Shown here piece by piece: positions 2,321 to 15,536 of a stretch of 20,280 bases of DNA. The notes beneath the pieces are model-generated. The model was not told the DNA's origin, did no database searches, and saw nothing but the letters and a program-made list of their open reading frames with translations. The position numbers and the translations under genes are program-made. Position 1 is the first letter of the stretch, and each line of letters begins with the position of its first letter. Source of the DNA: a virus; the IMG/VR virus record IMGVR_UViG_3300008516_000223, positions 1-20,280 of that record. One strand, 5' to 3'.

Positions 2321-2623
2321 ATGGCTTCAGGAGTTGACAGAGTAGTAGTAGGAGCAGTGATCGGCACAGGGTTGGCCATGAACATTGACACGATAGGCTT
2401 TCGCCCGAAACTCGTTCGTGTTGTGAACGTGACAACTCTGTCTCGCCACGAATGGTTCAAGGGCATGGCTGATGCCGCTGCTGTCAAAACAGTTACTGCA
2501 GGCGACATCACTGCAATCTCCTCGAATGGCATCACGCCAAGAGAGAAAGGATTCACGCTTGGCGCAGCGGCGGGTGGCGTGAACATCGACGGTGAGAAGT
2601 GTCACTACGAGGCCCACGAGTAG
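2321..2623 (+). CDS. Small virion-like protein, tandem paralogue 1 (100 aa)
   Basis: The SD AAAGGAGG precedes the ATG at 2321. The protein is beta-rich with a recurring skeleton: an N-terminal ASGVDRVVVG, then GFRPKLVRVVNV, EWFKGMADAAAVKT, GITPREKGFTLG and a final glutamate-rich YEAHE. The two genes immediately downstream encode proteins aligning along their whole length. Similar short proteins with a GITP...GFTLG...N motif occur in tailed-phage structural regions, so I infer a virion surface, decoration or appendage protein. Nothing resembling an enzyme active site is present. A 32-base stretch (2396-2427) is identical to the third copy but not the second, pointing to recombination within the cluster. 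The gene cluster sits between the fibre gene and the packaging genes. Confidence 0.85.
   Translation: MASGVDRVVVGAVIGTGLAMNIDTIGFRPKLVRVVNVTTLSRHEWFKGMADAAAVKTVTAGDITAISSNGITPREKGFTLGAAAGGVNIDGEKCHYEAHE
2396..2427 (+). repeat. 32-bp perfect repeat, copy in paralogue 1
   Basis: This is identical to 3045-3076 in paralogue 3. Both encode the GFRPKLVRVVN segment. Paralogue 2 encodes nearly the same peptide with many synonymous differences. Confidence 0.9.
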
Positions 2624-2638
2624 GGCAGGAGGTGCGAG

Positions 2639-2944
2639 ATGGCTTCAGGAGTTAATCGAGTTGTGACAGGTGGGGTCGTTGGGACTGGCGCAAGTTTGAA
2701 CGTTGACACCGTGGGCTTTCGACCGAGGCTGGTGAGGGTGGTCAATGTGGACAGTGGCGGTTACAGTCGTCTGGAGTGGTTTGATGGCATGGCAGATGCT
2801 GCAGCAGTCAAGACAGCGATAGCCGGTGACATTACCGTGCTGACTACTCTTGGCATTACCCCAAGGGGCGAAGGATTTACGCTCGGAGCAGATACTGATG
2901 TAAATGTGTCTGGCGAACTAGCGTATTTCGAAGCGTTTGAGTAG
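2639..2944 (+). CDS. Small virion-like protein, tandem paralogue 2 (101 aa)
   Basis: Begins at ATG 2639, 15 bases after the stop of paralogue 1, with AGGAGG upstream. It keeps the family skeleton: ASGVNRVVTG, VGFRPRLVRVVNV, RLEWFDGMADAAAVKT, GITPRGEGFTLG and VNVSGE...YFEAFE. It differs from copy 1 by a two-residue insertion after the VVNV strand (DSGG) and a one-residue shortening near the end. At nucleotide level it is clearly more diverged from copies 1 and 3 than those are from each other in the central strand. The role is inferred as for its neighbour; three non-identical copies may form a hetero-oligomer or supply antigenically different versions of a surface protein. Confidence 0.85.
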   Translation: MASGVNRVVTGGVVGTGASLNVDTVGFRPRLVRVVNVDSGGYSRLEWFDGMADAAAVKTAIAGDITVLTTLGITPRGEGFTLGADTDVNVSGELAYFEAFE

Positions 2945-2963
2945 GGGAAAGGGAGGTGTAATT

Positions 2964-3275
2964 ATGGGTTCAGGAATCAACAGGATAGTAGTCGGCTCGT
3001 TGATCTGCTCCAACCCGGCAGTAGCTGTGAACATTGACAGGGTGGGCTTTCGCCCGAAACTCGTTCGTGTTGTGAATGTTGGGGCCACGGGAAAAAGCAG
3101 ACTAGAGTGGTTCAAATCGATGGCTGATGATTCGGCGATGAAGACGATCACCAATGGAACTATTAGCTTGGTTGTCGCAGATGCAATCACACCACGTGCA
3201 AACGGTTTCACACTCGGTTTGGATACGAATGTCAACATCGCAGATGAGCGGGTGTACTGGGAGGCACACGAGTAG
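2964..3275 (+). CDS. Small virion-like protein, tandem paralogue 3 (103 aa)
   Basis: I chose the ATG at 2964, preceded by GGGAGG, because the product then starts MGSGINRIVVG in register with the other two copies. A GTG-type start at 2937 would overlap the previous gene and add nine residues without homology. The protein carries the family skeleton with some drift: VGFRPKLVRVVNV, RLEWFKSMADDSAMKT, AITPRANGFTLGLDTNVNI and VYWEAHE. Two extra residues (AV) sit before the NIDRVGF segment. It is the last gene before the long inverted repeat at 3282-3386, so it probably ends a transcription unit of small virion genes. Confidence 0.85.
   Translation: MGSGINRIVVGSLICSNPAVAVNIDRVGFRPKLVRVVNVGATGKSRLEWFKSMADDSAMKTITNGTISLVVADAITPRANGFTLGLDTNVNIADERVYWEAHE
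3045..3076 (+). repeat. 32-bp perfect repeat, copy in paralogue 3
   Basis: Partner of 2396-2427. The identity includes third codon positions, unlike the rest of these two genes, so it is better explained by recent gene conversion or unequal recombination than by protein-level selection alone. Confidence 0.9.
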
Positions 3276-3793: not shown

Positions 3794-5275
3794 ATGGCAG
3801 AGGCAGAGGCAGAAGTCTCATTACTTGCAAGCAGTCCTTTGGTGCTTGCTGAAGCAAAGCGAGAGGACTTGCTTGACTTGTTGCAGCACTACAAGTCGAT
3901 GGGTAATGAGCTCATACGGCGCCTTGTGCTAGAGAAAAACAGGATAGACGTGCTGGCCAAAGTGGTTCTTGGGTACGAAGTCAAGCCTTTCCACCTTTCC
4001 ATGATGCAGTTTCAATTCAAGCATGTTGATAGTTTGCAGCTTGCTTACAGGGGTTGTGGAAAGAGTACTTTGTGTACGGTCACGAAGACGATTCATTACC
4101 TACTCAAGAACCCAAACTTGAGAATTCTCATTGCGAGCAAAACAACGAAGAACGCAAAAGACTTTTTGAAAGCAATCAAGAATCATTTCGAGAATAACGA
4201 ATTGCTTGAGGAGATATTCGGAACTTACTATGATCCGCACAAGGTGAAGAAGTGGGATGAAAGTGAAATTGAAGTTGTGCCCCGTACTCTGATATCTATA
4301 GAGCCTTCGGTTCTTTGCATTGGTGTTGATGGCACAATTGTTTCTAAACACTTTGACATCTTACTCAACGATGACTTGATTGACGAGGAGAATTCCCGTA
4401 CCGAGCACATGAGAAGTAAGACAAAGGTTTGGTACTACAAAACCTTGGAACCTTGTCTTGAGCCACCAGACAATGAAGTAGAGCACCGAGGAGAGCACCA
4501 CAGACTTGGAACGAGATACCACTACGAGGATTTGTACGGCCATCTCATGAAGAGCGAGCTCAAGCATTCACATCAAGTCATTGAAGCACACGACAAGAAG
4601 GGGAGAGTTCCTTGGCCAGAAAAACACTCCCATAAGTGGTTTATGACAAAGAAAAAGAAATCCGGTGTTATCATCTTCAACGCTCAGTACCTCTGTAATA
4701 CCGAGGCCATGAAGGGACAAGTCTTCCACTACGACGACTGTCAAGTTATAGAAGACAGGTTGATACCTTCAGACCTTCGTATTTTCATGGGAGTGGATCT
4801 TGCCACCAGTGAACAAGATCAGAAGGGCAACGCGCAGTTTGCGATAGTTGTGATAGGTGTGTGTGGCGAGGGAAACATTTATGTGCTCAGCCGATACCTG
4901 AGACATATTGGATTCCCGAAACAAATCCAAAAGGGGATTAACTACTACGAGAAATACGATCCAATCAGGGCAGGAGTTGAAGCGAACGCATATCAGCTAG
5001 TGTTCTACCAGCAGATGAAGGAGTTGGACAAAACTTACAGGTTTGTCCCTATCTATACAGATAAGGACAAGATGACTCGCGCTCTGAAGCTAACTCCTCT
5101 TTTCGAGGGAAAGAAAGTTTTCTTCAGGAAAGACATGGAAGATTTGATTGACCAGTTTGTGCTTTTTCCTGGATACGAACTCAGAGACGGATTGGACGCT
5201 TTTGATCTGGCTTACAGAGCCAGCAAGATCAAGAAAAGAAAGAAACCTCCACGCGAAGAGCCTGGGTTGCTATAG
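3794..5275 (+). CDS. terL: Terminase large subunit (493 aa)
   Basis: This is the ATPase-nuclease motor that pumps DNA into the prohead through the portal and cuts it. The N-terminal ATPase has a Walker A segment RGCGKST at residues 86-92 and a Walker B segment FDILLNDD ending in two aspartates at 193-194. The C-terminal RNase H-like nuclease shows the expected acidic residues: D335 in MGVDLAT, E396 in GVEAN, and D465/D468 in DGLDAFD. The length of 493 aa is normal. I chose the ATG at 3794 (product MAEAEAEV...). The frame is open further upstream, but there it overlaps the 126-aa gene out of frame. SD is weak, so coupling to the preceding gene is likely. No small terminase gene is recognisable beside it. 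Confidence 0.95.
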   Translation: MAEAEAEVSLLASSPLVLAEAKREDLLDLLQHYKSMGNELIRRLVLEKNRIDVLAKVVLGYEVKPFHLSMMQFQFKHVDSLQLAYRGCGKSTLCTVTKTIHYLLKNPNLRILIASKTTKNAKDFLKAIKNHFENNELLEEIFGTYYDPHKVKKWDESEIEVVPRTLISIEPSVLCIGVDGTIVSKHFDILLNDDLIDEENSRTEHMRSKTKVWYYKTLEPCLEPPDNEVEHRGEHHRLGTRYHYEDLYGHLMKSELKHSHQVIEAHDKKGRVPWPEKHSHKWFMTKKKKSGVIIFNAQYLCNTEAMKGQVFHYDDCQVIEDRLIPSDLRIFMGVDLATSEQDQKGNAQFAIVVIGVCGEGNIYVLSRYLRHIGFPKQIQKGINYYEKYDPIRAGVEANAYQLVFYQQMKELDKTYRFVPIYTDKDKMTRALKLTPLFEGKKVFFRKDMEDLIDQFVLFPGYELRDGLDAFDLAYRASKIKKRKKPPREEPGLL

Positions 5276-5283
5276 GAGCTGAC

Positions 5284-7017
5284 ATGGCAGAAGAAAAAGA
5301 CTTCAACGAACGCAGTGCGAGCAAGAATCAAGCGAAGGTTCGGGCGTTGATACTGCCGATCAAGAAAGCGCAGCAAGCAGAGCCAGGGAAGTCGAAGGCA
5401 CTCCCGGAGGATCCTCTTGAGGCGATGGTAGAGACGGGTGAGATTATCGAGCCACCTTTTGACTTACTCTCGCTTTCGATGTTGAGCGAACACAACTCTG
5501 AGTTAGGGCCGGCCGTCCAGGCCATGGAGATCAACATAGAGGGATTCGGGCAGAGATTAGTTTCTCGGTTGGATGTTGATAAGGTAAAAGAAGACAAAGA
5601 TCTACTCAAGAAAGTGCAAGAAGAAAAAGTCAGGTTGGATAACTTCTTCGCCTACGCAGCTCTTGATGTTTCGTTTACGAAGTTCAGAAGGATGTTGCGG
5701 GTTGATCTTGAGTTGACAGGTAATGCCTACTTTGAAGTTGTCAGGAACATGAAAGGAGAGATCCAGGGGTTCAATCATGTCCCTTCGTACCAGATTCGAC
5801 TTGGTAGGCAGCAGAAAGATGCTGTCGAAGTGGATATGTCGGTTTACCAGTTGCAAGATAAGGGTGTTGTTGCCATTGAGAAGATGAGGGTGTGGAAGAG
5901 ATTCAGGACTTTTGTTCAAGCCAAGTATCTTTACCGCAGGGATCTATCTTACGTGGGTACGTTCTTGAAGAGATACTTCAAGGAGTTTGGGGATCCGAGA
6001 GTCTATGACAACGAGACAGGCGAGATTGTCAAGGACGCAGACAAGCTTGCTAAGCTTCCATCAGACAAAAGAGCAAACGAGATGGTGCATCTCAAGATTT
6101 ACAGTCCTAGATCTCCCTACGGCTTACCGCGATTTGTCGGGGCCATGCTTTCGATATATGGCGACAGAGCATCAGAAGAGATCAATTACATCACGATTAT
6201 GAATAACAATGTTCCCTCGATGGTAGTGTTGGTTTCGAATGGGCAGATTACTCAGGGTTCGATAGATAGAATCAAGGACTTTACAGAGAGTTTGATTCAA
6301 GGTTCGGACAACTATAGCAAGTTCTTGCTGCTTGAAGCAGAGCCTGCAGAAGTTGAAGGGGAGGAACCTGGTCAAGTCAAGTTTGAGATAAAACCACTTA
6401 CCCAAGTGCAGCACAAGGACGCTTTGTTTCAGGAGTATTCAAAGAACAATCAGGATAGAGTGAGAAGGCAATTCAGATTACCGCCACTTCTGGTGGGCCG
6501 CGCTGATGACTATGTCCGTGCCACTGTGGAGGCTGCTCGTCGTGTGGCGGACGAGCAGATATTCGCACCAGAGCGAGATGAGTTTGATAACCTGATCAAC
6601 CGGGTGCTTTTTCCTCACATGGATGTGCTGTATCACAAGTTCAAGAGCAACTCTCCTAACACGACTGACAACACGGAGCTTGTCAAAATACTTGCCGGCG
6701 CAGAGAAGACAGGCGGCATGACACCTCGAATAGCGCGGGTGATGCTTGAAGACATACTTGGGATCGAGCTTCCGCCATTCCCAGAAGATTTCCCTGCTGA
6801 CAGACCGTTTTCGGAGACAATGGCAGAGGCAGTAAAAAACATGGCCTCACCCGTAGAACCGGGACAGCAGGTTACCGCCTTGAAAATGATCGACCAGCTT
6901 ACCGAGTCTGACATACCTCTCTTCGAACAGACTGAAGATGAAATGGTTGAGAAACTTCTCAATGTCAGAAATAAGCTTGAGCAGAAGTGGCGTGAAGATG
7001 TGGAGGCAGAGGAGTAG
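5284..7017 (+). CDS. Portal protein, PBSX/P2-like family (577 aa)
   Basis: The portal forms the dodecameric ring at the capsid vertex through which DNA enters and leaves. The protein shows hallmarks of the PBSX/P2 gpQ-like portal family. An N-terminal segment reads DLLSLSMLSEHNSELGPAV, the central part has HLKIYSPRSPYGLPRFVGA, and the crown/stem region has FRLPPLLVGRADDYVRATVE followed by APERDEFDNLINRVLFP. The C-terminal 100 residues are helical and acidic. AGGAG lies four bases before the ATG at 5284, only nine bases after the terL stop. The order terL, portal, minor head protein is the classical packaging order. The length is within the family range, perhaps slightly long at both ends. Confidence 0.93.
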   Translation: MAEEKDFNERSASKNQAKVRALILPIKKAQQAEPGKSKALPEDPLEAMVETGEIIEPPFDLLSLSMLSEHNSELGPAVQAMEINIEGFGQRLVSRLDVDKVKEDKDLLKKVQEEKVRLDNFFAYAALDVSFTKFRRMLRVDLELTGNAYFEVVRNMKGEIQGFNHVPSYQIRLGRQQKDAVEVDMSVYQLQDKGVVAIEKMRVWKRFRTFVQAKYLYRRDLSYVGTFLKRYFKEFGDPRVYDNETGEIVKDADKLAKLPSDKRANEMVHLKIYSPRSPYGLPRFVGAMLSIYGDRASEEINYITIMNNNVPSMVVLVSNGQITQGSIDRIKDFTESLIQGSDNYSKFLLLEAEPAEVEGEEPGQVKFEIKPLTQVQHKDALFQEYSKNNQDRVRRQFRLPPLLVGRADDYVRATVEAARRVADEQIFAPERDEFDNLINRVLFPHMDVLYHKFKSNSPNTTDNTELVKILAGAEKTGGMTPRIARVMLEDILGIELPPFPEDFPADRPFSETMAEAVKNMASPVEPGQQVTALKMIDQLTESDIPLFEQTEDEMVEKLLNVRNKLEQKWREDVEAEE

Positions 7018-7019
7018 AA

Positions 7020-8069
7020 GTGCAGACGGCGGTAGACATTTTGTATGACCGAACCGTGGTTGTTGATGACTTGGTTGCAAAAGCACTCAAGCTTACCGAG
7101 ATAGCTCGAATAGCGAGAACAGAAACCACTCTTCGGAGGTATATCAACTCGAAGTGGAACGCAAGGTTGAGGAAGGCGACGGAGAAAGCAACTTCTATGG
7201 CAAGAGCTTTGAAACCTGCCTCGCAGATAGCCAAAGCAATTGACAAGGAGATGGGGAAGTGGGCGGGGGATGTTGAGAAGAGATTTCTTGAGTCAGTAGA
7301 GAAGATGTATCGAAATGCTCGCATAGCTGGTTGGAAGAAAGCAACCAAGCAGACGAAGGCGAGCCTGTCTTATACCGTTCCCAGCTTTACCGAAGAAGTG
7401 AAAAAGCAGAGGGCGGTCGCAGAAGCCTTGCCAAGTTTTGATCTTGTGGACGAGGAGGCAATAGAGGCTTTGCAAGATCATCAACTCTTTTGGATAGGTA
7501 AACACTACGAAGAGAATGTGTCTGGTTCGATAGCAACAACGACAAAGGAAACGATGGTTGAGGTTGGCAAGGATAGAAGGGTAGCAGGCAAGCTCATGTC
7601 TGCTCGGGTTAGAGACACTCTCAAGCATGTGAGAACACCAGGAGGTTGGCACGGGAGTTCGAAGCAATACTTCGAGGGCCTAGTTGCGAATTCAGCTACG
7701 GTTGCCAGAACTCATGGACAGACAAAATCCTTCCAAGCAGCAGGTGTTACGAGGTATGAGCTGATCAACCCTATGGATAGAAGAACATCGGAGCAATGTA
7801 GCCATTTGAATGGAAAGGTGTTCACTGTGGAGAATGCTACTGAAATGATGGAGGCAGAGCTTGATGCTGAGACTCCTGACGAAGTTAAGAAGGTCCATCC
7901 TTGGCTAGGTATAAAAAAGCTGAAAGAGATTTCACCTCGGGCAGGTAAAGTAAGTTTGGAGGATTCCAGAAAGCTAGCAGAAGCAGGTGTTAGTTTACCC
8001 CCATTTCATTTTAGATGTCGAACGACAGTTGACATTTCAGTTGAAGCTGGTTCATGGGAACCGCTATAA
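7020..8069 (+). CDS. Minor head protein, Mu gpF / SPP1 gp7-like (349 aa)
   Basis: It starts with GTG at 7020, two bases after the portal stop, with GAGGAG just upstream inside the portal codons. The N-terminal 130 residues are helical and basic. The C-terminal domain has the signature of the phage Mu F-like head morphogenesis family. That signature is ATVARTHGQTKSFQAAGV, then NPMDRRTSEQCSHLNGKVF, and finally LPPFHFRCRTTVDI with the conserved PPFHxxCR end. Members of this family are minor capsid proteins associated with the portal vertex and, in some phages, with DNA delivery. It directly follows the portal and precedes the giant protease fusion, as expected for a head operon. Confidence 0.88.
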   Translation: MQTAVDILYDRTVVVDDLVAKALKLTEIARIARTETTLRRYINSKWNARLRKATEKATSMARALKPASQIAKAIDKEMGKWAGDVEKRFLESVEKMYRNARIAGWKKATKQTKASLSYTVPSFTEEVKKQRAVAEALPSFDLVDEEAIEALQDHQLFWIGKHYEENVSGSIATTTKETMVEVGKDRRVAGKLMSARVRDTLKHVRTPGGWHGSSKQYFEGLVANSATVARTHGQTKSFQAAGVTRYELINPMDRRTSEQCSHLNGKVFTVENATEMMEAELDAETPDEVKKVHPWLGIKKLKEISPRAGKVSLEDSRKLAEAGVSLPPFHFRCRTTVDISVEAGSWEPL

Positions 8070-8078
8070 GGAAGAGAG

Positions 8079-11000
8079 ATGCCCAAGGTTAGACGTGCTG
8101 CTAAGAAGCCTGAAGAGACATCGGTTCCGGTTGTCAAGACGATATTTTCTGAAAGTCTTGACGATGGGAAGTTATATCCCTTGCGAGGTTTGCCAGGTGG
8201 GAGTGGAATAATCAGCGAAGAGGACAAGGGCAAAGTTGTTTTTGTCGAGATAGGCAGATATGAAAAACAAATTTTGCGTCCTGATTCTGATCCTGGGGAG
8301 ATGACAACTGGGGAGCTCAGGGAAGCTCACAGCCAGCTACACGAGATGTTTGAGCAAGGTGAAGTAAAAGGATTCTCAACTGAGGATATTGTGAATCTTC
8401 ATGCTTTGGTTGTGGATGAGTTGATGGACAGAGGAAAGACTCATCCTGCTCCACCTGACAACGGGCTGGACGATGTGTCAGAAGAGTTCGAGAGACATGA
8501 GAAGGTAGAGAAGAAGTATGCTCGTATTCAACACTCAGGGGTGAAGAGGGGTGAGAAGATTCAGCTTGCAGATGTCTTGCGGCACTTCGAGACATTCAAG
8601 TTGAGGAAGCCTTACATCTATCTGGTGGGAGGACTTGCTAACAACGGATCGACAGAGGGTGACATAGACATTTTGATCCAAGATACTGTGGAATTGCCTG
8701 AAGAACTCAAACATGCAATTCACTTTCGTTTGGGTCGGGCTCTTCCTCCTGAGTTGGCCGAGCGGTTGGAGTTTCATTTCAATGAGTTTCATACCCCTTT
8801 TACAAATCATGTTGAGTTGTATGACTTGACTTTTGAGAGAGTAAATCCTGAGAACGAAATCAAGTTGATGCGAGATGAGGAGACCGAGAAACGAGTCAAG
8901 CCACTTTGGTCTTCTTCAGGTGGTAAGACTAGACTTGCTCCTAAGCTTGTCGAATTGTTGCCAGAGCACAAGGTCTACGTGGAGCCGTTTGCTGGTTGTG
9001 GTGCTGTATGTCTTGCAAAGGAGATCGTGGACACCGTAGTGCTCAGTGATTCGGATCAGGAGATTGTAGACGCATTCAGGTTAGTCAAGAAGCTGACGAA
9101 ATCTCAGTTGGAGGAGTTGAAGAGGAAGAACTGGATTGGCATTCCAGAACGCTATTACAAGTTGAAGAAGGAATCACCAAAGGGAGATGTGGAGCGTCTC
9201 TATAGATTTTTGTATACTTCTAGCTTCGCATACGGTTCGGATCGCAAGGGAGGGTTTGGTTATTACAATAAGGGTCGCGATGCGAGTACCCGACTGGCTA
9301 GATTTGAATCTGTGCGTAGTAGGTTGCAGGGCGTGAAGATAGAATCAGGTGATTATCAGAAGGTGGTTGAGAAGTACGATAGCAAGGAGACCCTCTTCTA
9401 TTTTGATCCTCCCTACGTTGGTTACGACGCTACTCTAGGAGAAGGAAAGTTTGACGAAGAGCGATTTCTGAAAGTTCTTTCTGGTTTGAAGGGCAAGTTC
9501 TTGCTCACTTATGGAACGCGAGGTTCTTTGCCAAGTAAACTCAGGAAGGCAGGATTTCAGATCAAAAAGCTGAATACCCCACGGCATGGACTTGGCTTGT
9601 TTGCGAACCATGCAGAGCAAGAGAATCGACAGCTCGCTACCCTGATCGTTACCAATTACATCTTGGCAAAGAAGGATGACGCTGAAGAGTTGTTGGTGGA
9701 TATCTCTGAGAAGGAGATTGGAGAGATAGCAAAACAAGAACCACGAACAGCTCCATCCAAATTCATAGAGCAAGCAGAGAGAGCCGAGAAGAACGACAAG
9801 CTTACTCTTGGTGAGTTCTTCTACCAACCAAAGCCGACCAGACCTGCTTTTCCAGAGGAGCTTCAGACCGTCGAGAGATTGCTTTCTCTTTTCAAAGAGA
9901 GGCTAGAGTGGTTTCCAACTTTCGTGCAGAAGAAGCTTGATGGAGCTCGACATCAGATCCACGTTGATGGAGACAAGGTAAAGATTATCTCCGAGGACGG
10001 CGAAGACAACACAACTCGACTTCCTGAGACTGTCAAGGAGCTCCAAGCACTCAAGGTTGACAAGTTGGTCTTCGATGCCGAGATCGAACAGTGGAAAGGC
10101 GGGCAGCACCTTCCTCGCGAAGCTGTTGCTGGCTATCTACACTCGAAAGACGAACCAGACGACTCTGACATTGTAGTGAACGTGTTTGACGTGCTTTATC
10201 ACGGAGAAGATGGCGACATCCACAAGTTACCTGTCAGGGAGAGACTTGAGAAGTTGAAAGAGCTTGGCATCAAGCAAAGCACAATGAGCGCTCCCAATCT
10301 GGAGTACAGATTGAACGCGGTGCCGGGTGTTGAGGTGAACGACTTGGCAGAGTTAGAACGCTCAGTCAGAAAGATCAGAGAGCTTCCGGGCTCGGAGGGC
10401 ATAGTTGCAAAGCGGTCAGATGCAGACTATCCACTCAAGCTTACGACTCCTGATAGTTGGATCAAATTTCACAATGCAACTACTATCCGAGGGATTGTAT
10501 ACGGAAGTGAAAAGACGAAGGGTGGAGTTTGGGTCTACCAGTACGGCATGCTTCCTGGAAAGGAGAAGTCGCAGAAGACCATCGAAGTGAAGGGCAAGAC
10601 AATTGTTCCCGTAGGAGACACGTTCGCAACCAAGAGGGACTTTGAAGACGGTGATGGGATACTGATCGAAGGCGAGACCGTCAACATAGAGAGAAGTCCC
10701 AAGGGATTGAGAATCAGTGTTTGGGTGCCTCGTGTGATCGGACCTTGGGAAGGCAAGGCAGACACGGTTGACACAGCAGCAACAAGAGCGAAGAAGAACC
10801 TTGTTCTGCAAGAGAAGGTGATCGACGAAGAAGGCAACATTGAATACCTGCCAACCAAAGCGATTGAGAAGCAAGCTGATCCTTACATGGAAATTCCATC
10901 GGAAGAAAAAGGACCATACGATTACACCTGTCAGTTTCATTGGCGAGGGAAATCACTACATACGGATTTTCGAATTGCATTTCGACCTGGAAAGTTACTG

Positions 11001-12824
11001 ATTGGTTGGACCTTGAACAATCAGATAGCGGGAGCCGTCAAGGATCCTGTTGTGACTCTCAAGCAAGCGCGTTCTCTGGCTAAGAACCGAATGGATGAGA
11101 TTAGTAAGATCAATTTTAATACGGGAAAATGGGCAGAGCGTCCCAAGGCAGGCACAACCAAGCTGGTCAGAACAAGCATACTTTCAGAACGCAAAGCGGT
11201 CGAACCTTACGCTTGGTTGAATGTGGAAGGCAAGACTAAAGAGCCAGAAGAAGGCAAACCTCCTCCAGTTGGCGGGACCAAACGGTATCCCGGTGTGTTT
11301 CAAATCGTTGACAAGGGAAAGGTTGAATTTCTTGCTCAAAAGCCGTGGTTCCACGAATATGCAGTTCGTGGCCGTGCCATGAACTACCGGTTGATCTTTC
11401 GTCAGCTCAAGTTGCCTGCGAGGAAAGCGGCGTATTCAAGGAAGCTCTGCATGTACGATGGCTGCATGATGGATCCTGAAGTTGACGTGCTGTGGGCTGA
11501 CGGTAGAGGCAGGGCTTGGTTTTGCAAAGAGCATCTCAAGAGATGGAAGCAAGGATTTGTAGATAGGGGAAAGGAAGACTGGCTTGATATAGTGGACGAG
11601 AAGAAAGTCACCACCGGTGAAGTACCAGAGAAGTGGGCTGACATTCACAAGTCGATAGGCGACCTTGATGTGGAGGTGACCGTCACAAAAGAGATCGTGC
11701 TCCCTCCTTCTGAAGAGCAAGCTATGCCTGGCCCTGCTTGGCTTGCCATGCAGCCAGATGACTTAACTCCCTACGTGCTTGACAGAGAAGCCGTCAAGAA
11801 GGGTTGGATGCCTCCTGTGGGTGTCTCTGCTCTTCCTAAAGCAGTCAGAGATCAGGTCCCCAGTGAGTGGCAGTATTGGAAGAAGAGAAGCGCCTCAGAG
11901 GCCCGCAAAACAAGAGATGGGTTGGTTGAGGCAGTAAAGGCCAAAGAAGTGAGGTTGGACTACTCCGCTCCATACAAGAAGAGTGTATCGAAAGCGTCTA
12001 TGCTTGACGCTGATTTCGTCTTGCAAGAGCAGACTTGGAAAGGACCGGTTCAGATTCGGGTGGGCCCTTCGAGAACGCTTTGGTGGTTGAGGTTGGATGT
12101 GGGTAGACCAGAGCTGGTTGCTATTGAGATGTATCTGAATCCTCTTGACAATGCGAAGTTGGCTGTTAAGCCAGGGGCAGATCCTCATAAAGACTCGATG
12201 GAGTTTCAGGGAGCAATCAAGCCAGGTCACTATCTGAACCCGACAAAGGAGACTCCTAGCAACATTGAGATTTTGGATTCTGGCAAGGCTTCTGTGCTTG
12301 CATACAGCAAAGACTTAATCAAGGTCGAGCTGAAAGGCAAGAGGCTCAAGGGATTGTACCAAGCGAAGAGAAGTGATGGGGACTGGTTGTGGTCTCCTAT
12401 TGAGCCAGGGCCAGTGGTGAAGGAGGGCGATATGCGAGCGCAGATCAGGCTAGAGATGCCGATTGCCAAGGTGGACAAAGAAAAGCAACTTGTGACTGGG
12501 ATTGTGCTTGAGCCAAATGAAGTAGACGCGCAGGGAGACATCATAGACGCCGGTGCAATAGAAAGAGCTGCTCATAGGTTTCTTTCCAGATACAACAGTG
12601 AGACGAGGTTGGGTTTGCTTCACAAGATATTTGGTGAGAATGGTGTGGATCTTGTGGAGTGTTGGGTCTCTCCGCTTAATTTCAAACTGGGAGGCCAAGA
12701 TGTTAAGAAAGCCACTTGGCTAATGACGGTTCATGTGACAGACAATATTCTCTGGAAGAAGGTTAAGTCTGGAGAAATAACCGGTTTTTCGATTGGCGGG
12801 ATGGCGACTGTAGTTAGTGGGTGA
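8079..12824 (+). CDS. Giant fusion: nucleotidyltransferase, adenine methylase, DNA ligase, two LigD-PE-like domains, XkdF-like protease (1581 aa)
   Basis: The start ATG at 8079 has AAGGA six bases upstream. Domains by residue: 80-135, helical segment; 175-275, nucleotidyltransferase fold with GGLANNGS then GDIDILI (D195, D197); 278-525, D12-class adenine methylase with GGKTRLAP (281), FAGCGAV (304-310) and DPPY (443-446); 605-798, ATP-dependent ligase with KLDGAR (K619 nucleotidyl acceptor), FDAEI, EGIVAK (773-778) and WIK (794-796); 799-890, OB fold; 940-1110, LigD phosphoesterase-like with H954, H961, D963 and R965; 1124-1152, C-x4-C...C-x2-H zinc site; 1313-1445, second phosphoesterase-like domain lacking H-x-D-x-R; 1452-1581, XkdF-like prohead protease with likely H1515 and S1571. 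The fused parts could process, seal and methylate DNA in or near the capsid; that is inference. An internal start at 12432 may release the protease alone. Stand-alone XkdF-type proteases are far smaller. Confidence 0.9.
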   Translation: MPKVRRAAKKPEETSVPVVKTIFSESLDDGKLYPLRGLPGGSGIISEEDKGKVVFVEIGRYEKQILRPDSDPGEMTTGELREAHSQLHEMFEQGEVKGFSTEDIVNLHALVVDELMDRGKTHPAPPDNGLDDVSEEFERHEKVEKKYARIQHSGVKRGEKIQLADVLRHFETFKLRKPYIYLVGGLANNGSTEGDIDILIQDTVELPEELKHAIHFRLGRALPPELAERLEFHFNEFHTPFTNHVELYDLTFERVNPENEIKLMRDEETEKRVKPLWSSSGGKTRLAPKLVELLPEHKVYVEPFAGCGAVCLAKEIVDTVVLSDSDQEIVDAFRLVKKLTKSQLEELKRKNWIGIPERYYKLKKESPKGDVERLYRFLYTSSFAYGSDRKGGFGYYNKGRDASTRLARFESVRSRLQGVKIESGDYQKVVEKYDSKETLFYFDPPYVGYDATLGEGKFDEERFLKVLSGLKGKFLLTYGTRGSLPSKLRKAGFQIKKLNTPRHGLGLFANHAEQENRQLATLIVTNYILAKKDDAEELLVDISEKEIGEIAKQEPRTAPSKFIEQAERAEKNDKLTLGEFFYQPKPTRPAFPEELQTVERLLSLFKERLEWFPTFVQKKLDGARHQIHVDGDKVKIISEDGEDNTTRLPETVKELQALKVDKLVFDAEIEQWKGGQHLPREAVAGYLHSKDEPDDSDIVVNVFDVLYHGEDGDIHKLPVRERLEKLKELGIKQSTMSAPNLEYRLNAVPGVEVNDLAELERSVRKIRELPGSEGIVAKRSDADYPLKLTTPDSWIKFHNATTIRGIVYGSEKTKGGVWVYQYGMLPGKEKSQKTIEVKGKTIVPVGDTFATKRDFEDGDGILIEGETVNIERSPKGLRISVWVPRVIGPWEGKADTVDTAATRAKKNLVLQEKVIDEEGNIEYLPTKAIEKQADPYMEIPSEEKGPYDYTCQFHWRGKSLHTDFRIAFRPGKLLIGWTLNNQIAGAVKDPVVTLKQARSLAKNRMDEISKINFNTGKWAERPKAGTTKLVRTSILSERKAVEPYAWLNVEGKTKEPEEGKPPPVGGTKRYPGVFQIVDKGKVEFLAQKPWFHEYAVRGRAMNYRLIFRQLKLPARKAAYSRKLCMYDGCMMDPEVDVLWADGRGRAWFCKEHLKRWKQGFVDRGKEDWLDIVDEKKVTTGEVPEKWADIHKSIGDLDVEVTVTKEIVLPPSEEQAMPGPAWLAMQPDDLTPYVLDREAVKKGWMPPVGVSALPKAVRDQVPSEWQYWKKRSASEARKTRDGLVEAVKAKEVRLDYSAPYKKSVSKASMLDADFVLQEQTWKGPVQIRVGPSRTLWWLRLDVGRPELVAIEMYLNPLDNAKLAVKPGADPHKDSMEFQGAIKPGHYLNPTKETPSNIEILDSGKASVLAYSKDLIKVELKGKRLKGLYQAKRSDGDWLWSPIEPGPVVKEGDMRAQIRLEMPIAKVDKEKQLVTGIVLEPNEVDAQGDIIDAGAIERAAHRFLSRYNSETRLGLLHKIFGENGVDLVECWVSPLNFKLGGQDVKKATWLMTVHVTDNILWKKVKSGEITGFSIGGMATVVSG
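12420..12434 (+). promoter_or_regulatory. Internal in-frame SD and ATG at the protease domain boundary
   Basis: AAGGAGG at 12420-12426 lies five bases before an in-frame ATG at 12432 inside the giant gene. Translation from here would give a 130-aa protein starting MRAQIRLEMPIAKVD, which is the XkdF-like protease domain and nothing else. Sequence and spacing are as good as for any start in the window. Whether ribosomes use it is not shown by sequence alone. Confidence 0.6.
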
Positions 12825-13067: not shown

Positions 13068-13100
13068 GAAGCCTCAAGCATTTGCTTGGGGCTTTTTGTC
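13068..13100 (+). terminator. Rho-independent terminator after the YezD-like gene
   Basis: The stem AGCCTCAAGC (13070-13079) pairs with GCTTGGGGCT (13084-13093) over ten base pairs with one G-U pair. The loop is ATTT and TTTTGT follows directly. One or two further pairs can form at the base. It lies 30 bases after the stop of the YezD-like gene and ends 17 bases before the next start codon. It splits the head genes into an upstream enzyme/packaging unit and a downstream scaffold/capsid unit. Confidence 0.85.
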
Positions 13101-13117
13101 GTTTCAGGGAGCAGGAG

Positions 13118-14287
13118 ATGCCAGACATAGATGAGGACAAACCGAGAAGGATGTTAGACGTTGACGTGAACGAGGTTTCTCTTGTTGATCGAGCAGCGAA
13201 CCTCAGAAGATTTCTAGTTATCAAACGACTGACGAAGGAGGAGACAATGCCAGCTTTCGAGATGGACGAGAATGTTCCCAAGGAACTCGAAGGATTCTAC
13301 ACGGAAATGCAGGAAGTCGAAAAGGCTCTGCCTGACGACGTTTTTGATCCGCTCGAGGATTCCGAGATCGAGGAGATCCAGAAGGCATTGCCAGAAGACT
13401 TGGCAAAGGCCCTCAAGGAAACCATTGCGTGGATGAAGCGCATGGGCAGGATGAAAGGTGCCCCGAGTGGAGCAATCAGCCGAGTGCTGACTTTCCTCGG
13501 GAAGGTAGCCGGCGGAAGGTATCCAGAACCTGCGGCCAAGACAGAGAAAGATGTGAAGAAGGGCTTATCTGCCGACATCGCAACTTCGGTTCGTCGGGTT
13601 GTGACGTTCTTGGAAAAGGCAATCGAAGAATATCCGAACCTGAAGCCGGTCGAGAAGTCGGAAGACAGCAAGGTGGATGAGTTCGAGATCGAGAAAGCTC
13701 TGCCTCCTGATTTGGCAGCGGCCATCCGTATGGTGGTTTCTTTCTTGGGCAAAGTGCTCGGGGGCAAGTACCCAGAGCCTGCTGCCAAAGACACGGCAGC
13801 CAAGATGGTATCAGCCAAGAAATCAGAGGATGATCCCGACGCGGAAATTCCAGCCATGCAAGTCATGGCAGATGGAACCGTGATCGTGAGTGGTCAGCCT
13901 GTGATGAAGGGAAAGAAGTTCACCCAGGGCAGGATAACCGCTCTCAAGGATGCGAGCTTGCAGCTCCTGAAGTTGATGGCTGAAGTAGGAGACGAAGCCA
14001 CCATGAAAGCGTTCGAGGAGGCCATGAAGGGATTCTCGACCTACACACAAGGAGTGCATGCAATCGCCCCGACTCAGAAGGCAGCAGATGCAGAACCCGA
14101 GAAGGACGAAGAGAAAGAGGAACTCAAGAAGCAGCTTGCCGAGGTGACGAAGCAACTCACCGAGGTGGCCAAGCGCCTTGAGACCGTGGAGAATACGAGG
14201 TCTGTCTCGACATCCGTTGATGGTCAGGGCGGCACTGACAAGGAGAGAGTCGAGAAGGGTTTCTGGGGTGGTATTCTAGGAAACTGA
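13118..14287 (+). CDS. Scaffold-like head assembly protein with XkdF-type SLVDRAAN motif (389 aa)
   Basis: I chose the ATG at 13118, with AGGGAG six bases upstream; earlier in-frame starts fall inside the terminator. Residues 8-30 read LDVDVNEVSLVDRAANLRRF, the motif that follows the protease in XkdF-like phage proteins. The middle contains KALPxD-type elements at residues 69, 89, 148 and 193, and three copies of an RVVxFLxK...YPxxxP unit near 122, 160 and 204. A predicted coiled coil follows (EELKKQLAEVTKQLTEVAKR). The tail ends RVEKGFWGGILGN, shared with the zinc-ribbon protein. Charged, helical, coiled-coil proteins between protease and capsid genes are typically scaffolds, so it probably guides capsid assembly and is removed later. 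A second SD-ATG at 13247 may yield a 346-aa form. Confidence 0.8.
   Translation: MPDIDEDKPRRMLDVDVNEVSLVDRAANLRRFLVIKRLTKEETMPAFEMDENVPKELEGFYTEMQEVEKALPDDVFDPLEDSEIEEIQKALPEDLAKALKETIAWMKRMGRMKGAPSGAISRVLTFLGKVAGGRYPEPAAKTEKDVKKGLSADIATSVRRVVTFLEKAIEEYPNLKPVEKSEDSKVDEFEIEKALPPDLAAAIRMVVSFLGKVLGGKYPEPAAKDTAAKMVSAKKSEDDPDAEIPAMQVMADGTVIVSGQPVMKGKKFTQGRITALKDASLQLLKLMAEVGDEATMKAFEEAMKGFSTYTQGVHAIAPTQKAADAEPEKDEEKEELKKQLAEVTKQLTEVAKRLETVENTRSVSTSVDGQGGTDKERVEKGFWGGILGN
13235..13249 (+). promoter_or_regulatory. Internal in-frame SD and ATG in the scaffold-like gene
   Basis: AAGGAGG at 13235-13241 lies five bases before an in-frame ATG at 13247. The shorter product would start MPAFEMDENVP and lack the SLVDRAAN segment. 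The SD sequence and the five-base spacing are the same as for the internal site at 12420-12434. The purine run could instead merely encode TKEE, so use is uncertain. Confidence 0.5.
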
Positions 14288-14336
14288 GAAAAAGCAACTC
14301 AACCAACCTTTTTTTTGAATGAAGGAGGATTTGAAA

Positions 14337-15536
14337 ATGCCAAGCGTGAGCAACGAAGAGCTAGTCAGAAAGGCGGTCATCGTTTCTGGTGACCTCGCCA
14401 CTTCTGGAAAGCTGAACCCGAAGCAGGCCGACCGTTTCCTGGATTACATCATTGACGAGTCAGTCCTGAAGAACAACGCACGGATCGTTCGGTTCCGAAA
14501 TGAGCAGTTGATCATCGACAAGATCGGGATCGGAACGAGAGCAGCCGTACCGAAGACTGAGGCAGTGGATCCCGGAGTCCGTCGGGGTATCTCTACCTCA
14601 AAGGTAACTCTGACTCCGCAGAGCATCATGGTTCCTTTTGAGATCGGAGATGAGTTCAAGGAAATCAACATCGAGGGTGATGCTGTAAAGGATCATCTGA
14701 TGAAGATGTTCGGAAGGCAGCTCGCCAACGATACCGAAGAACTTGCCTTGAACGGAGACACGAACGGTCACGCCGTGCTGGAGAGTGAGTATGTCTCTGG
14801 TGGCGATGCAACCAAGTACGTCAAGGACGCCTATCTAGGCATGTTTGACGGTTGGAACCGGTTGGGTGACGGTGCGAACGTGTATGACGCAGCAGGCGCA
14901 AGCATCGGACTGGGTGTGTTCGGCGGAATGCTTCGAAAGATGCCAACCAAGTTTCGGCGGGACAAGAGAAATCTACGGTTTTTCATGAGCCCTGATCTGG
15001 CTCAACTCTACATTGAGAAGCTGGCGACCCGCTCGACTATGCTGGGTGACAAGTCCGCAGAGGGAGCCACACATACTCCATACGGTGTGCCCATCGTTGA
15101 GGTTCCTCTGTTTGACCTTCTGCCTCCCATCGTACAGCATGTTACCTTGACGGGAACAACGGCGGCAGCTCTGCGGTTTGGCCCGGTTTCTTCTGTGATA
15201 GTTAACACATCGACTCTGGGAACGACTCCCGAGGCTGCTTATATCGAGACGACAGACTACGTGGTTGACTACACAGCAGGCACAGTCGTTCGTTCTGGTG
15301 GAGGTAGCGCAATCACCAGTGGTCAGGTGGTCAAGGTGACCTACAAAGCAAACCCGCAGATTCTGCTTACCCACATGAACAACTTCATCCTGGGCATAGG
15401 TCGAGATCTGCGATTGGAGACCGACAGGGACGTGTTTAAGTCGGTCGATCAGATCGCAATCACCTTGAAGCTCGCTGTGGAATTTGAGGAGCTTACGGCC
15501 ATCGTGAAGGGTCAGAACATCGCGACGACCATCTAA
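14337..15536 (+). CDS. Major capsid protein, HK97 fold, with inserted beta domain (399 aa)
   Basis: I chose the ATG at 14337, eight bases after AAGGAGG. The ATG at 14319 lies upstream of that SD. The N-terminal region (FLDYIIDESVLKNNARIVRF), the SIMVPFEIGDEF strand and the long helix HLMKMFGRQLANDTEELALNGD are typical of an HK97-fold capsid subunit. The later parts SPDLAQLYIEKLATRSTMLGD and YGVPIVEVPLFD, then ILLTHMNNFILGIGRDLRLETDRD, are the usual P-domain end. Residues about 262-341 interrupt this end with a beta-rich segment (for example TTDYVVDYTAGTVVRSGG and GQVVKVTYKANP), probably a surface-exposed insertion domain. It follows the scaffold-like gene as in most phages and should be the most abundant product. 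No covalent crosslink residues can be assigned from sequence. Confidence 0.9.
   Translation: MPSVSNEELVRKAVIVSGDLATSGKLNPKQADRFLDYIIDESVLKNNARIVRFRNEQLIIDKIGIGTRAAVPKTEAVDPGVRRGISTSKVTLTPQSIMVPFEIGDEFKEINIEGDAVKDHLMKMFGRQLANDTEELALNGDTNGHAVLESEYVSGGDATKYVKDAYLGMFDGWNRLGDGANVYDAAGASIGLGVFGGMLRKMPTKFRRDKRNLRFFMSPDLAQLYIEKLATRSTMLGDKSAEGATHTPYGVPIVEVPLFDLLPPIVQHVTLTGTTAAALRFGPVSSVIVNTSTLGTTPEAAYIETTDYVVDYTAGTVVRSGGGSAITSGQVVKVTYKANPQILLTHMNNFILGIGRDLRLETDRDVFKSVDQIAITLKLAVEFEELTAIVKGQNIATTI

Follow-up and report, generated by a model that had tools for sequence, protein, structure and literature searches.

One gene of the virus record IMGVR_UViG_3300008516_000223, whose 20,280 bases make up the window (the whole stretch of DNA analyzed here), encodes a giant fusion protein, which is probably a head-targeted polyprotein for DNA end repair and DNA modification acting on the viral genome. 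The protein unites DNA-processing domains with a prohead protease, its catalytic residues are near-invariant, its sequence is under purifying selection, and its family occupies a position in the viral head module, the fusion to the protease being found in one clade. The original prediction had presented it as a set of repair enzymes packaged through their protease; this reading held in respect of the domain content, the gene slot, the unusual character in comparison with ordinary phages and the lack of an assembly error, while packaging, cleavage, injection and the virus's own genome as the substrate are steps that we infer.

Domain architecture and authenticity of the giant gene

The frame runs through 1581 codons without a break, as predicted, and the sequence motifs that had been pointed out in it were all located at their places in the protein. 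The N-terminal segment is followed by a nucleotidyltransferase-like domain (NTase), a D12 methyltransferase, an ATP ligase, an OB domain, a first phosphoesterase (PE1), a zinc-like insert, a second phosphoesterase (PE2) and the XkdF protease (Table 1). Pfam searches recovered the D12 methylase, the ATP ligase and the XkdF protease, all above the curated cut-offs.

Table 1. Segments of the giant protein and neighboring head genes in the window.
Feature	Residues	Position in the window	Strand	Evidence
Terminase large subunit		3794..5275 (probable start 3794; longest ORF from 3686)	+	phrog_38 E 8e-76, PF17289
Portal protein		5284..7017	+	PF04860 E 5.7e-19, phrog_12
MuF-type minor head protein		7020..8069	+	PF04233 E 3e-5 (below curated cut-off); phrog_115 E 2e-12
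Giant fusion gene	1581 aa	8079..12824	+	uninterrupted ORF, Pfam and family profile searches
N-terminal segment	1-140	8079..8498	+	helical from about residue 77; matches no known family
Pol-beta-superfamily nucleotidyltransferase-like domain	150-255	8526..8843	+	motif and conservation
D12 class N6-adenine DNA methyltransferase	270-532	8886..9674	+	PF02086 E 5.6e-23; phrog_13242 E 3e-100
ATP-dependent DNA ligase adenylation domain	613-797	9915..10469	+	PF01068 (DNA_ligase_A_M) E 3.3e-21
OB-fold-like ligase C-terminal domain	801-913	10479..10817	+	family HMM
PE1, LigD-type 3'-phosphoesterase	946-1112	10914..11414	+	fold match, weak sequence match to 3p43, conservation
Putative zinc site (C..C / C..H) between PE1 and PE2	1124-1152	11448..11534	+	
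PE2, LigD-PE-like, degenerate metal site	1215-1446	11721..12416	+	profile and fold match
XkdF-type (Peptidase_S78_2) prohead protease domain	1462-1578	12462..12812	+	PF14550 E 8.6e-29
Scaffold-like protein		13082..14287	+	matches C-terminal part of phrog_3017 head protease family
Major capsid protein		14319..15536	+	phrog_1623 virion structural protein E 5e-69; tblastn matches to annotated phage MCPs

That such a chain results from an assembly error, or from a chance fusion of adjacent genes without any joint function, is so improbable as to be negligible, the sole point in its favor being that the window is a virus contig of unestablished completeness. The record L002 (loci are designated here by L numbers) carries a 1582-aa counterpart with 88% identity over residues 1-1579, and L003 is 100% identical across residues 1-783, where its sequence stops; the same domain order is encoded as a single long ORF in each of L034, L035 and L040. 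It is because of L002, L003 and the wider family that an artefact was rejected. The dN/dS values between the window and L002 are as low as 0.04-0.09 in every segment, linkers included (rough ratios, since dS approaches or exceeds 1 in most segments), and every domain of the giant protein is under purifying selection.

Nucleotidyltransferase, methylase and ligase domains

Residues 66-140 of the N-terminal segment are kept in L009 and L011. The predicted nucleotidyltransferase stood at the level of the motif: the GG..DID signature was found at residues 184-197, with the first G and both D invariant in 29/29 homologues, and the relative L015 matches PF01909 with an E-value of 0.019. Fold support was weak, as the AlphaFold model of this domain is poor (pLDDT 61) and gave weak matches to MNT/Pol beta; identification from structure was dropped for this reason. 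The NTase alignment was also too variable to serve in the locus scan. The D12 methylase, expected from its motifs, possesses both of them (PFAGCGAV at 303-310 and DPPY at 443-446) and was supported by the profile match as well, the Pfam MethyltransfD12 hit spanning residues 280-452.

The same applies to the ligase, in which, in addition to the Pfam match, KLDGAR (619-624), EGIVAK (773-778) and WIK (794-796) are present. The catalytic positions, represented by K619, D621, G622, E668, D704, E773, K778 and K796, are near-invariant in the alignment of 33-34 homologues. Profile search matched PDB ligases with an E-value of 5e-24, and the alignment to the ligases 4eq5 and 9dfa runs on through the OB-fold-like domain.

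Tandem phosphoesterase domains and the zinc-like insert

The window sequence taken alone gave no Pfam match in the region behind the ligase. When the family alignment of residues 925-1450 was used as a profile against PDB sequences, it matched only archaeal LigD 3'-phosphoesterases (3p4h, E 1e-4; 3p43, E 1.5e-4), chiefly in its second half, the first half matching the same fold weakly. The AlphaFold model of this region has a pLDDT of 75, mostly above 80 within its two barrels, and a comparison of the model with known structures returned only five LigD-PE entries at E<1e-3. On the basis of the profile match and the fold match of the model, the phosphoesterase domain appears to be duplicated. 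The LigD-type phosphoesterase features noticed originally are thus borne out by profile and fold, and the tandem copy goes beyond what had been claimed.

PE1 carries the motif HWRGKSLHTDFR at residues 954-965, where H954, H961, D963 and R965 correspond to LigD His42, His48, Asp50 and Arg52, i.e., to the metal triad (His42, His48, Asp50) and the Arg52 of the LigD PE active site (PMC8656161). These four residues are kept in nearly all of the 37 homologues; for LigD His84 and Tyr88, a clear counterpart in the giant protein could not be mapped. PE2 is devoid of the metal-site residue pattern of PE1 and may serve in DNA binding. The zinc site noted originally was located as a C..C/C..H motif between the two domains and is treated as putative; this insert was seen in the window and L002, the other rows of the family alignment being without it.

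The protease domain and its head-gene neighborhood

The XkdF-like protease anticipated at the C-terminus is matched by both Pfam and PHROG, with a Peptidase_S78_2 score of 100.5 against the cut-off of 24 bits and an E-value of 6.7e-34 for the phrog_3017 head maturation protease, and its GFSIGG motif lies at residues 1569-1574; the scaffold and major capsid protein (MCP) genes are located directly downstream. The Ser of the E-S-W motif, presumed to be the nucleophile, is present in 20/22 aligned sequences. At this position the window has Cys1528, encoded by TGT (12660-12662) versus AGC (Ser) in L002. The cysteine might still serve as the nucleophile; alternatively, the protease would be inactive here, or the difference a mere variant of the sequence.

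As proposed, the giant gene takes the slot between MuF and scaffold in an otherwise normal head module (TerL-portal-MuF-giant-scaffold-MCP), where TerL is the large terminase subunit. The assertion that ordinary phages have just a small protease there agrees with PAK_P3, in which a 139-aa protease lies between the portal and scaffold/MCP. In the vicinity, residues ~283-348 of the capsid protein resemble phrog_807, a major tail protein with an Ig-like domain. Positions 81-1946 of the window encode a LamG/concanavalin-like domain protein (match just below the cut-off), which is perhaps a receptor-binding or decoration protein, and three tandem paralogues of about 100 aa, the middle one without a Pfam match, precede the terminase gene (2321-3275).

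The main rival explanation is a purely intracellular role, namely that of a late-made ligase/methylase which finishes, repairs and marks progeny DNA ahead of packaging or in its course, the protease fusion merely tethering the protein near the packaging motor and no injection taking place. Adjacency of the terminase and portal genes suits action at packaging, adenine and C5 methylases (see below) suit the marking of progeny DNA, and a search of 13 records detected no PF01068 ligase beyond that of the giant gene in any of them, so that its product could simply be a general ligase acting in the cell. We nevertheless regard this explanation as unlikely. According to the established course of head assembly, prohead proteases work only inside the prohead. 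Since the protease must be inside to work, a giant protein fused to it would be drawn into the prohead; besides, the uracil-DNA glycosylase and EndoV-like glycosylases of the relatives suit damage during storage better than the finishing of fresh DNA.

Distribution of the family and its association with head genes

A search for the same domain order, one of the checks suggested with the original prediction, showed that NTase-ligase-OB-PE1-PE2 recurs in some 30 viral or proviral loci after removal of redundancy, ANMV-1 being one of them. Alignment scans gave 14 and 38 viral loci, as well as four archaeal genome contigs (Methanosarcinales, Methanophagales, Euryarchaeota); as these scans relied on short conserved patterns, members were missed and the sampling is partial. 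According to the window-family profiles, the order holds wherever the locus is complete, the core being split over two adjacent genes in L013, L016, L051 and L055. No description of this protein family was found in the open literature, subscription journals being outside its scope.

The tree of PE1 and PE2 was built from the 32 loci in which both domains were good enough, after removal of duplicate records and protease-only matches. Protease-fused members form one group in it, with support of 89/81 when the divergent L042 is included and 100/100 without L042. The sole seemingly unfused member inside this clade, L030, ends before the protease would begin.

Within the fused clade, the complete arrangement TerL-portal-MuF-giant-SCAF-MCP was found in the window, L002, L009, L011 and L040; L034 has portal and MuF upstream and SCAF and MCP downstream, and SCAF and MCP also follow the giant gene in L027-L029, L031, L035-L038, L041 and L049. 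For unfused members, PHROG scans of the neighbors revealed TerL and portal upstream and MCP downstream in L015, L043 and L052; portal upstream with protease and MCP downstream in L021 and L051; protease and MCP downstream in L048; TerL upstream and MCP downstream in L046 (TerL-?-giant-..-MCP); MCP downstream in L018; and portal upstream in L060, the neighbors of L054 yielding only a marginal protease match. Thus, the portal-to-capsid position was observed at every locus with resolved head neighbors and no tested locus spoke against it, the count leaving out L014, L016, L022, L024, L045, L055 and L057-L059. Distant viruses without the protease fusion show the same block position, so that the association with head genes is not contingent on the fusion; as judged from these gene orders, the location in the head block is older than the fusion or independent of it. 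Such a gene position suggests that the particles of viruses in this family carry a kit for DNA repair.

As regards the hosts, matches were found in 5/295 genomes of the phylum around the Methanosarcinales MAG G022, in line with contigs of viral or proviral origin that turn up only now and then. Among the larger records, TBP was detected only in that of L048, and neither PCNA nor bacterial SSB was found; MCM matches above the cut-off occurred in the records of L040 and L051, but the MCM family also matches bacterial controls.

Variable modules and inteins

The D12 methylase precedes the ligase in the window and follows the OB domain in L013; it also occurs elsewhere in the giant locus in L009, L034, L046, L051 and L060, and no methylase match was obtained in ANMV-1, L021 and L048. 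A C5 methylase is fused to the ligase half in L009. L012 possesses a uracil-DNA glycosylase (UDG) domain between OB and PE1, whereas T4 EndoV-like pyrimidine-dimer glycosylase (Pyr_excise) domains were detected in L014, L015, L043 and L052, MBL-fold domains in L016, L051 and L060, and 2H phosphoesterases in L009, L011 and L040; radical-SAM and DUF6884 segments are present in L014 and L052. By these assignments, DNA-repair and DNA-modification enzymes make up most of the variable modules, and the majority act on DNA, bases or nucleic-acid ends.

Two of the loci are interrupted by additional genes. In L009, a Vsr mismatch-endonuclease gene (10718-11146, minus strand, i.e., opposite to the giant gene) separates the half with the NTase from that with the C5 methylase and the ligase, an arrangement that looks like the invasion of the giant gene by a dcm-vsr unit. 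In L011, the halves are separated by QueD-type, radical-SAM (QueE-like) and GTP cyclohydrolase I genes (9719-11293), a set which suggests 7-deazaguanine DNA modification; a DpdA/TGT-like reading of the N-terminus of the L011 ligase ORF, made by eye only, received no support from Pfam and was discarded.

Some of these modules might be taken as signs of a counter-defence effector of the polyvalent type, shielding the incoming DNA from restriction and nucleases and repairing lesions only secondarily. D12 and C5 methylases together with the QueD-type, radical-SAM and GTP-cyclohydrolase genes fit such a role, and ligation with healing of 3' ends could reverse nicking defences; DarB of phage P1 (PMC5512222) would be a precedent for it. 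We hold this alternative to be rather improbable, as restriction evasion alone leaves unexplained both the UDG and EndoV-like modules and the members in which no methylase was matched (ANMV-1, L021 and L048).

Two relatives contain inteins in the giant gene (L031 6641-11848 and L051 4983-9941), that of L031 being inserted exactly after ligase motif I (KYDG) and carrying LAGLIDADG, that of L051 being located at ligase motif V. Inteins typically insert in active essential enzymes. An intein-like insert with weak Hint/intein Pfam matches was also observed in the MuF gene of L002 (5269-7989; boundaries ..ERT|CFCENT.. to ..VHN|C), the MuF gene of the window being without it. In another frame, this insert harbors an ORF of 470 aa (6197-7609) that codes for zinc-knuckle-like repeats and a nuclease of the DUF559/Vsr type.

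Proposed function and its significance

For a head-targeted repair and modification polyprotein, the following course of events can be envisaged. The C-terminal XkdF protease would bring the giant protein into the prohead alongside the scaffold; at maturation it may release the enzymes, which would remain in the capsid and travel with the DNA. DNA enzymes that are virion-borne and cis-acting have precedents in DarB of phage P1 and in MuF-fused effectors (PMC5512222). On the viral genome, 3' ends blocked by a 3'-phosphate or a 3'-ribonucleotide would be restored by PE1 to 3'-OH, and the nick would be closed by the ATP ligase; for the NTase, the addition of a nucleotide or a regulatory part is conceivable. 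The front end would be an interchangeable part which marks or excises bases, presumably by adenine methylation in the window and, in the relatives, by C5 methylation, nearby 7-deazaguanine genes, excision of uracil or pyrimidine dimers, and 2H or MBL enzymes. In a broader sense, we tentatively put forward, as a plausible extension, that tailed viruses of archaea, and possibly of bacteria, may carry in the virion an all-in-one repair machine with a fixed ligase-3'-phosphoesterase-NTase core and swappable front ends, delivered with the genome.

Tailed viruses are usually viewed as handling damage to the stored genome by host repair or by enzymes made after entry. A repair core residing in the head block, and welded to the protease in one clade, would mean that the particle itself supplies the repair kit, and, if true, a virion-borne machine which mends and marks the genome on arrival would count as a novel type of system for the maintenance of viral genomes. 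The importance of a kit brought by the particle would be greatest where the host grows slowly, e.g., for viruses of the methane-cycling archaea tied to ANMV-1 and its kin. The variety of front ends (UDG, EndoV-like, methylases) would provide a natural series on the damage or defence which each virus faces, while the protease fusion would represent a route for targeting to the head, and the ligase-phosphoesterase a compact tool.

Comparison with known systems

Large eukaryotic DNA viruses carry repair enzymes in their particles. The idea is alike, but theirs are separate proteins of unrelated viruses, as against a single polyprotein of a tailed virus of prokaryotes in the window.

LigD, the multi-enzyme protein of bacterial NHEJ (reviewed in PMC8656161), resembles the giant protein in that an ATP ligase, a 3'-phosphoesterase with its metal triad kept and a nucleotide-adding domain (in the giant protein the NTase, at the motif level) are combined in one chain. 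The "LigD-like set" of the original prediction is to be narrowed to a likeness in function, through the ligase and the 3'-phosphoesterase. In contrast to LigD, a Pol-beta-type NTase motif occupies the place of the AEP polymerase, the phosphoesterase is duplicated and C-terminal to the ligase, and the gene belongs to a viral head block. Pfam search of the giant protein gave no match to a polymerase family, including AEP-type domains, and the NCBIfam LigD model scored 61.9 bits, far below the cut-off of 373; membership in LigD is ruled out by the absent polymerase and these scores.

The protease domain and its slot before scaffold/MCP are shared with prohead proteases of the XkdF type (PF14550), e.g., those of PAK_P3 (YP_008857638) and HHTV-2 (gp38), whose genes (139 aa and ~540 aa, respectively) are smaller than the giant one and have no DNA enzymes annotated. 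A PAK_P3-like "DNA methyltransferase", considered as a precedent for a methylase-protease fusion, was rejected, being really a misnamed 139-aa protease; in L025 (NC_022970, 2919-3335) the name "DNA methyltransferase" has been given to such a prohead protease of 139 aa, apparently through an error common to related records.

ANMV-1 (KP703175), described from methane-seep sediment as a putative virus of archaea (PMC4372165), possesses a direct homologue (AJP62006) with the order NTase-Lig-OB-PE1-PE2, located between the portal and a MuF-related gene. Unlike the window protein, it comprises 866 aa and has neither the methylase nor the protease fusion, the prohead protease being a separate gene. 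It is annotated just as "ATP-dependent DNA ligase", and the word "ligase" is absent from the text of the ANMV-1 paper (PMC4372165).

Polyvalent proteins, which occur in phages and conjugative elements (Iyer et al., 2017, PMC5512222), are giant multi-domain proteins encoded in portal-terminase regions of phages and predicted to be packaged and injected, with a peptidase proposed to process them. The likeness lies in the many enzymatic domains per chain, the late/head region, and the methylase, Pol-beta NTase and 2H types. The expression "DNA ligase" does not occur in the text of that paper, and passages of it on ligases concern RNA ligases. The zincin-like metallopeptidase, a frequent but not universal polyvalent hallmark, gave no Pfam match in the window protein. 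Unlike the polyvalent proteins, the giant protein has an invariant core composed of a DNA ligase and the tandem LigD-PE, and its peptidase is not a zincin but the virus's own prohead protease.
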